From Marinitoga sp. 1197 (lineage in GTDB: Bacteria; Thermotogota; Thermotogae; Petrotogales; Petrotogaceae): a DNA stretch of 64,000 nt. The notes under the pieces are model-generated. The model was not told the origin of the DNA, did not search any database, and was given only the letters and a program-made list of their open reading frames with translations. Positions 6,473-52,853 of this stretch are shown here, piece by piece (positions within the stretch are counted from its first letter, which is position 1; every line of letters begins with the position of its first letter). The position numbers were made by a program, and so were the translations under genes. The DNA lies in contig NZ_AZAY01000006.1 of the NCBI RefSeq assembly GCF_001021165.1, positions 1-64,000 on the forward strand, given 5' to 3'.

Positions 6473-6535
6473 ATACACGCTACCGCGGGTTGTAGGATAA
6501 GCAATCGAGATGTTTTAGTGAATTTGACTTTTTAA
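6473..6535 (+). repeat. Dispersed repeat, copy 1a (shortened)
   Basis: A partial copy of the repeat family also seen at 6551, 25611 and 52566. It has the block TACACGCTACCGCGGGT (shared with 52614-52630) and then a GGATAA...AGTGAATTTG block matching 52764-52789 on the same strand. The central hairpin of the longer copies is missing, so this looks internally deleted. It lies directly after the phosphate kinase gene. Confidence 0.6.
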
Positions 6536-6550
6536 TACATTTTAAATAAA

Positions 6551-6745
6551 TTACGATGTCCAAAAAGTAAAGTCGCTCAAACCTTGATTGTTAATCCTCA
6601 AAAATAGCTCATTCTCGCCGGTCGTATCAGACTCACGTCCATGTTCGGCTTCACTCAATTTTGCATCCGTGCAAAATTGACCGGCTACATTCGCTATTTT
6701 TTCGGACAATCTGCGAGTTTTCGCTTGCTTTACTAATTGGACACA
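6551..6745 (-). repeat. Dispersed repeat, copy 1b, with nested hairpin
   Basis: Begins with a stretch nearly identical to 25611-25630 (TTACGATGTC, then CAAAAAGT or TAAAAAGT). An outer 7-bp stem (GCCGGTC 6617-6623 with GACCGGC 6679-6685) encloses a 10-bp inner hairpin (6656-6665 with 6670-6679, loop TCCG). A further block, CGGACAATCT followed by CGAGT, matches the complement of the 52566 copy. The ends GTCCAAAAAGT and ACTAATTGGAC form an imperfect terminal inverted repeat. The region is visibly richer in GC than nearby genes. No open reading frame of note is present. Confidence 0.65.
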
Positions 6746-6759
6746 CTAAAATAAATTTA

Positions 6760-25610: not shown

Positions 25611-25856
25611 AAATTACGATGTCTAAAAAGTCGAATTCACTCAGGCAGCGATTATCCTTAAAATTATTCATGCTCAACCGTCGCATCGATTTTTCATCCA
25701 TTTTTCATCCATGAAAAAGCTTCACTCAAAAAAACATCCTGTTGGCGGATTTCACTCACGCTTAGATTTTTTAGAATAAAAAATCTAAGGGGAAAGGATT
25801 TATAATATTAAAAATTATTTATTCCAATTACCCGCTGTAAGCGTATAACATCTAAG
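25611..25856 (-). repeat. Dispersed repeat, copy 2
   Basis: Matches copy 3 (complement) over long stretches: a TCACTCAG-R-CAGCGATTATCC block continuing to 25670, the ACTCACGCTTAGATTTTTT block at 25754-25772, and a weaker match to the GCTACCGCGGGT block at 25829-25845. Internal hairpins: TTTTTCA/TGAAAAA (25701-25718, loop TCCA) and a 12-bp stem 25761-25772/25778-25789. It starts 14 bases after the 2H phosphoesterase gene and its last bases include the stop codon of the convergent PfkB gene. Confidence 0.65.
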
Positions 25857-52519: not shown

Positions 52520-52546
52520 TAGCCGCAAGGCTATTATATTTTTATT
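52513..52546 (+). terminator. Terminator after tatD, GCAA tetraloop
   Basis: A 12-bp perfect stem (52513-52524/52529-52540), loop GCAA (a GNRA tetraloop), then a T-rich tract. The stop codon of tatD lies in the stem. Confidence 0.88.
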
Positions 52547-52565
52547 TTATGATATGATATAATAT
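52536..52565. repeat. Left direct repeat flanking dispersed repeat copy 3
   Basis: Thirty bases that match 52803-52827 with one substitution (A for G) and one extra ATGAT unit. Each copy has a TATAAT-like box. It overlaps the T-tract of the tatD terminator. Confidence 0.55.
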
Positions 52566-52802
52566 AGGTTCTCTAAAAAGTCTCAAATGAAACGAAGACT
52601 CGAAGATTGTCCGTACACGCTACCGCGGGTATTGGTTTAAATATTTTTGATTTTATAAAAAATCTAAGCGTGAATGAAAGCCGTCAAAATTATATGGATG
52701 TACTTCCGGCGAAACAATACACGATGTATTGTTTGAGCGATGGCTGAAAATGAATAATTTTAAGGATAATCGCTGTCTGAGTGAATTTGTTTAGACGTTC
52801 TA
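52566..52802 (+). repeat. Dispersed repeat, copy 3
   Basis: The fullest copy. From left: CTCTAAAAAGTCTC end, GAAGATTGTCCG block, TACACGCTACCGCGGGT block, AATCTAAGCGTGAATGAAAG block, outer stem GCCGTC (52680-52685) with GATGGC (52739-52744, one G-T), inner 10-bp hairpin 52712-52721/52725-52734, then AAGGATAATCGCTGTCTGAGTG and an inverted-like right end with TTTAGACG. About 240 bases and GC-richer than the surroundings. No coding frame. Flanked by near-identical AT-rich direct repeats. Confidence 0.68.
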
Positions 52803-52827
52803 ATATTTTTGTTTTATGATATAATAT
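52803..52827. repeat. Right direct repeat flanking copy 3, holding the STAS gene -10 box
   Basis: Twenty-five bases matching 52536-52565 apart from one base and a 5-base unit. TATAAT at 52820-52825 is the best -10 for the STAS gene 29 bases downstream; the -35 region falls in the element's right end and is weak. Confidence 0.5.
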
Positions 52828-52853
52828 TATAAAAAAGAGAAATGAGGGATAAT

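Follow-up and report, generated by a model that had tools for sequence, protein, structure and literature searches.

The three dispersed repeats in the window, by which we mean the whole 64,000-nucleotide stretch of Marinitoga sp. 1197 that was analysed (contig NZ_AZAY01000006.1, positions 1 to 64,000), are copies of a small, gene-less mobile element that carries a TwoAYGGAY core. We regard the identity of the family as TwoAYGGAY as practically certain, and its identity as a MITE as equally secure. It is new that this core is enclosed by transposon ends of two or more unrelated kinds, that it also reaches high copy numbers in Lachnospiraceae, and that its carriers within one bacterial family all encode CsrA. 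Likewise, it appears not to have been recognized before that a known orphan RNA family is mobile, switches transposon ends and co-occurs with CsrA.

Copies of the element in the window

A sequence-only reading of this DNA had drawn attention to three places (6473-6745, 25611-25856 and 52566-52802) as GC-rich elements that share sequence and each contain a hairpin with a different, yet complementary, stem. This observation stands in part. The three places are homologous on comparison, hairpins with differing complementary stems are present in all three, and their G+C content is 33-39%, compared with 27.7% for the window. The extent of copy 1 and the claim that the hairpins lie at one corresponding place needed correction. 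Copy 1 actually spans 6553-6748 on the minus strand, where it is bounded by a 9-bp target site duplication (TSD), and the stretch at 6473-6550 that had been assigned to it is a fragment of a different repeat. The hairpin seen in copy 1 (6656-6679) is hairpin 1 of the structure described below, whereas hairpin 2 is what had been seen in copies 2 and 3. The features of the three copies are as follows.

6544..6552, unstranded: left 9-bp TSD of copy 1, AAATAAATT
6553..6748, minus (RNA-like strand): copy 1, complete short form, subfamily C, with terminal inverted repeats (TIRs), an exact TSD, an RF01731 score of 32.6 bits and a fold z-score of -6.9
6557..6568, plus: TIR of copy 1, TGTCCAAAAAGT; this end sequence is also found bordering a gene for a DDE_Tnp_1 transposase
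6617..6685, minus: outer stem P4 of copy 1, GCCGGTC/GACCGGC, enclosing both hairpins
6628..6652, minus: hairpin 2 of copy 1, a weak stem with tandem G.A and loop ATGGAC
6656..6679, minus: hairpin 1 of copy 1, CAATTTTGCA-CGGA-TGCAAAATTG, loop ACGGAT on the minus strand
6732..6743, minus: other terminal repeat of copy 1, TGTCCAATTAGT on the minus strand
6749..6757, unstranded: right 9-bp TSD of copy 1, AAATAAATT
25615..25790, minus: copy 2, partial, with subfamily B hairpins and one TIR (25620-25631); the other end is lost into repeat 2
25690..25718, minus: hairpin 2 of copy 2, CTTTTTCATGGATGAAAAA, with an internal duplication
52569..52798, plus (RNA-like strand): copy 3, long form, with subfamily A hairpins; no element at this site in G005, G003 and G006
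~52617..52672, plus: repeat 2 insert in copy 3, CACGCTACCGCGGG...AATCTAAGCGT, which replaces the 5' arm of stem P3 (long and short copies compared)
52712..52734, plus: hairpin 2 of copy 3, AAACAATACA-CGA-TGTATTGTTT, with the loop GGA mutated to CGA

The structure of the element is far beyond chance, with fold z-scores of -6.9 for copy 1, -3.3 for copy 3 and -9.7 for a typical complete copy.

Repeat 2 (CACGCTACCGCGGGTATTGG...AATCTAAGCGT) occurs in the window at 6473-6550, 25743-25856 and 52617-52672, and also at loci L033, L073, L086 and L093. It can be found within long copies as well as by itself near genes, and at several loci a related form ends in GTGTAACACCGGAGGTG immediately before a start codon. 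Copy 3 is flanked (52536-52563 and 52803-52830) by a 28-bp imperfect direct repeat (89%) with a promoter-like TATGATATAAT, which exceeds the usual duplication of 9-10 bp.

Copy number and mobility

Copies were gathered by genome search and then by reading out individual stretches. Further copies proved to be numerous, since a BLAST search with copy 3 as the query returned 92 matching pieces in the Marinitoga sp. 1197 genome, which holds at least 54 two-ended copies. The search of relatives that the earlier reading had proposed found the family in all seven sequenced genomes of the genus (BLAST). The complete short form is about 190 bp long (TGTCTAAAAAGTC ... GACTTTTTAGACA) and is an imperfect palindrome over its whole length.

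That the repeats might be a non-autonomous mobile element, as had been suggested, is borne out by TIRs, TSDs, empty sites and an insertion sequence (IS) with the same end. TIRs of the sequence TGTCYAAAAAGTC bound complete copies, and the end motif TGTCYAAAAAGT occurs 43 times in forward and 45 times in reverse orientation in the genome (4 and 3 times for the reversed control). The target duplications are AT-rich and 9-10 bp long. Among the 54 two-ended copies, 35 have exact direct repeats, 8 bp or longer, at their flanks; when flanks were paired between different copies in 200 shuffles, the average was 1.4 and the highest count 5. No copies were found inside long ORFs, the sites being intergenic. 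Copy 3 lies between a TatD-like gene and a STAS-domain gene, and this site is element-free in the relatives G005, G003 and G006.

On contig C1 (67377 to the contig end), a transposase gene closes at the same end, TGTCCAAAAAGTCTAAAG. Its product matches DDE_Tnp_1 (PF01609; E 1.5e-12) and gives weak matches to the IS4 and IS5 models, below their cut-offs. The gene runs into the contig end, and a second copy starts contig C50. Relatives carry the same end, and one of them (G001, locus L108) has a ~1.0-kb copy with both ends, the frame of which contains several stop codons. Because the ends are shared, this IS4/IS5-type transposase would be expected to mobilise the MITE in trans.

In genomes G003 and G004, the core is found in elements whose ends begin with CAGACTGTTGACAAA. 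The ends around the one TwoAYGGAY core are therefore of two unrelated kinds or more, and a third kind, TTGGAATCAAAAATAAAACG, is suggested. At seven loci with CAGACTGTTGACAAA ends (L066, L070, L148, L149, L152, L153 and L155), a palindrome of 20-28 bp is duplicated on both sides, and the same arrangement is seen at the TatD-STAS site of G004. The duplicated palindrome differs at each locus and is terminator-like in several. These elements insert at terminator-like palindromes, duplicating the whole palindrome; no transposase was found for these terminator-duplicating ends.

Structure and identity of the core

The earlier interpretation, which allowed for a structured RNA, a protein-bound DNA palindrome or a mobile element and knew of no named family that fits, was right about the structured RNA and the mobile element, and wrong about the family. 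The core is Rfam RF01731 (TwoAYGGAY, clan CL00106), to which a relative's copy gives a full-length match, and its stems covary. The likeness of the loops that had been pointed out (TCCG/TCCA) is the complement of YGGA, the motif that gives TwoAYGGAY its name.

RF01731 was first met in a permissive scan of a relative's copy. Its gathering score of 43 bits is exceeded by full-length covariance-model matches in five of the seven genus genomes. Over the genus, up to 26 matches per genome reach E 0.1 or better, and the best score among copies in the Marinitoga sp. 1197 genome is 52.2 bits. The window copies escape an ordinary Rfam scan at this threshold. For copy 1 the score is 32.6 bits (G000:C6:6579-6718:-), which is under the cut-off, so that we assign it to the family by its clear homology to copies that do exceed the cut-off.

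The tip of the palindrome is a three-way junction, in which an outer stem (GCCGTC/GACGGC) encloses two side-by-side hairpins with A-N-GGA-N loops. We counted covariation in 25 diverse sequences against shuffled and slid controls. Over 22 pairs, 97.1% of cells are paired, compared with 72.8% after shuffling and 37-46% after sliding by 1-3 columns, and two-sided changes number 138 (42 when shuffled), with seven one-sided changes. One P4 pair occurs as G-C, C-G, T-A and A-T, and the stems of hairpin 2 across genomes include CTTTTTCA/TGAAAAA, CTTTTGCA/TGCAAAA, CTTCTGCA/TGCAGAA and CTTCCCCA/TGGGGAA. By these covariation counts, the proposal that structure rather than sequence is kept holds across the genus. 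The tandem G.A in the enclosing stem is GA/GA in 23 of the 25 diverse sequences and is once replaced by paired AT/AT. Loop 1 has GGA in all 78 copies and loop 2 in most; loop 2 of subfamily A has CGA, which differs from GGA by a single base (10/78 copies), and copy L015 retains GGA. Changes within subfamilies A, B and C are ~3-8 times as frequent at unpaired bases as at paired ones, and the conserved unpaired features (the GGA loops and the tandem G.A) occur on one strand only.

Selection on RNA tolerates G.U mismatches far better than A.C mismatches. Recent stem changes in the genus comprise 13 G.U and 9 A.C, with small numbers for the inner stems, and the long outer arms of clostridial copies show 49 G.U and 41 A.C (p = 0.46). 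Since G.U is about as common as A.C, and two-sided changes so outnumber one-sided ones, complementarity may be partly due to DNA-level upkeep or whole-arm exchange. With no G.U excess among the stem mismatches, the repeats may also be a protein-bound DNA palindrome. The outer arms could be decaying inverted duplications.

Occurrence outside the genus

Within its class, RF01731 is limited to the genus and is absent from the other 96 genomes. Outside the genus, in Lachnospiraceae and others, we found 29, 59, 32, 7, 6, 14 and 12 matches per genome, with best copies scoring 57-138 bits. The outer arms of some Lachnospiraceae copies are copy-specific and match over ~24-30 bp or more, often perfectly. 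Searches of phage records gave no match to the element, and the plasmid search gave two weak matches only; both fall in TatD coding sequence, inside the first quarter of the query and outside the element. Pattern hits in IMG/VR looked for the most part like chance matches within coding sequence.

Clostridial TwoAYGGAY copies (L325, L333, L341, L349, L328, L351, L343 and L350) were observed at the tip of long inverted repeats, the arms of which differ from copy to copy, yet match closely within each. Several clostridial copies are inverted pairs 0.3-0.7 kb apart. In Shewanella and Marinobacterium (L175, L191 and L221), tandem 52-nt repeats of two-GGA hairpins adjoin terminators.

Association with CsrA

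The CsrA site, RUACARGGAUGU, is best bound when presented as an ANGGAN hexaloop; a single CsrA dimer bridges sites 10-63 nt apart, and SELEX-selected hairpins mostly have four or fewer contiguous pairs (PMC7652899). Gardner and Eldai, with the motif as their sole basis, predicted that TwoAYGGAY binds CsrA (PMC4333381). The sequence of the element has the features expected of a CsrA-binding RNA, namely ANGGA hairpin loops and a pair of sites separated by 10-63 nt (PMC7652899). Of the 78 cores, 75 contain one or more ACANGGAYGU-like sites, and 61 of the 64 measured copies have a GGA-to-GGA spacing of 27-29 nt.

All seven genus genomes have a CsrA gene. Among the 150 genomes of the family of G105, CsrA scores over the cut-off in all 20 RF01731 carriers and in 60 of the 130 non-carriers (Fisher p = 9.7e-7, or 1.8e-6 without G105, the centre of the comparison; phylogeny not corrected for). 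G109, a metagenome assembly of unknown completeness, has 12 RF01731 copies and no CsrA hit. Several TwoAYGGAY-rich genomes (G105, G154, G172 and others) have extra CsrA-like genes, of which G105 has seven. CsrA binding is the best-supported candidate mechanism for the role of the element.

Possible roles of the element

The explanation that we favour, and consider somewhat more probable than all others taken together, is a MITE built round a TwoAYGGAY core and acting as a mobile CsrA-binding RNA. In the proposed mechanism, the TGTCYAAAAAGTC ends and the 9-10 bp duplications, both directly visible in the copies, enclose a long imperfect palindrome with a two-hairpin tip, and the DDE_Tnp_1 transposase of the same-ended IS would move the element in trans. 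The strand with the GGA loops and the tandem G.A would act as RNA, and a CsrA dimer would bridge the two loops. Such an element would be mostly selfish, although copies may add CsrA sinks or bring neighbouring genes under CsrA control. Several observations speak against this explanation: copy 1 falls short of the Rfam gathering score; the association with CsrA is uncorrected for phylogeny, and high-copy G109 gave no CsrA hit; subfamily A, which has been amplified, has CGA in its second loop; hairpin 1 has about nine pairs, compared with four or fewer in most SELEX-selected CsrA hairpins (PMC7652899); the RNA strand is often antisense to its 5'-side neighbour; and the similar numbers of G.U and A.C mismatches (13 vs 9) are unexpected for a pure RNA fold. 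A wider version, which we advance tentatively and hold to be possible, is that TwoAYGGAY is a CsrA-binding RNA living as a mobile module, captured within a single genus by two or more unrelated sets of transposon ends and spread across CsrA-bearing phyla, with arms kept complementary in part by DNA-level processes.

The mismatch counts in the genus stems and the clostridial outer arms, the ratio of 138 two-sided to seven one-sided changes, and the copy-specific, often perfect arms in Lachnospiraceae would all suit a plain MITE with a palindrome that matters at the DNA level. Its arms would then be kept by template switching, arm-to-arm correction or inverted duplication, and the GGA loops would serve DNA handling or simply be inherited. 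We think this rather unlikely, as the GGA loops and the tandem G.A are conserved on one strand only, the core is common to several phyla and scores as an RNA family, and the association with CsrA is not predicted by a DNA-only view. The correlation with CsrA might instead stem from shared ancestry or motility, with the element serving as a platform, in RNA or single-stranded DNA, for some other protein. Phylogeny is not taken into account in the association test, and almost every genome in the window's own family has csrA, which makes it uninformative there. This seems improbable to us nonetheless, given a loop close to the CsrA consensus (ACANGGAUGU) that is held by a stem and spaced for bridging.

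A role in cis, with copies in mRNA leaders controlling the downstream gene, is suggested by the Rfam type 'Cis-reg' and can be judged from gene context, using mechanically called ORFs. Gene starts face the elements more than gene ends do (50 vs 26, p = 0.008), and the downstream gene is in sense at 20 of 54 copies. However, 5'-side neighbours of the RNA-like strand are mostly antisense, pointing away (30 vs 9 sense, p = 0.001), 3'-side neighbours are divided between 20 sense and 17 antisense, and both neighbours are antisense at 12 copies. The orientation of neighbours argues against a general cis-leader role, which we rejected because a sense position upstream of a gene is inconsistent. Gene contexts also vary, sites are empty in relatives, and TwoAYGGAY was judged not to be cis-regulatory in the discoverers' own remarks on the motif (PMC2864571). 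There is accordingly little chance that the element is a cis-regulatory RNA. REP/REPIN elements, integron attC sites and IS200/605 hairpins were set aside by argument, as they are a misfit with conserved loops on variable stems, TIRs and direct duplications.

Comparison with known systems

To our knowledge, TwoAYGGAY has been without an assigned function since 2010. Its recognition as a mobile element that reaches high copy numbers and co-occurs with CsrA supplies both a biology and a way of testing it. If CsrA does bind, jumping alone could allow transposons to rewire a global regulator or to titrate it. Our findings also indicate that covariation in palindromic repeats need not reflect selection at the RNA level.

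The core resembles TwoAYGGAY (RF01731) in having two AYGGAY-loop hairpins enclosed by an outer stem that contains tandem G.A. The cases reported in the part of the original description that concerns its occurrence are from gut samples, gammaproteobacteria and Clostridiales (PMC2864571), whereas here the motif is found in Thermotogota, inside transposon ends with target duplications. The passages on TwoAYGGAY considered here, including those in PMC2864571 and PMC4333381, contain no description of it as mobile. QMITE in Coxiella, RUP, BOX and SPRITE in pneumococcus, and ERIC are similarly short, non-coding and intergenic, with TIRs, direct repeats, a stable fold and a source IS, and QMITEs are known to give rise to sRNAs (PMC10969869). 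The present element differs from these in that the core of one RNA family is common to MITEs with unrelated ends and to distant phyla. Repeated GGA in hairpin loops is shared with the sponge sRNAs CsrB, CsrC, RsmY and RsmZ; each of those is an sRNA gene bearing anything from several to many sites, whereas the element has two putative sites per copy in dozens of dispersed mobile copies. If it does bind CsrA, the mobile TwoAYGGAY module would be a bacterial counterpart of RNA-derived SINEs.
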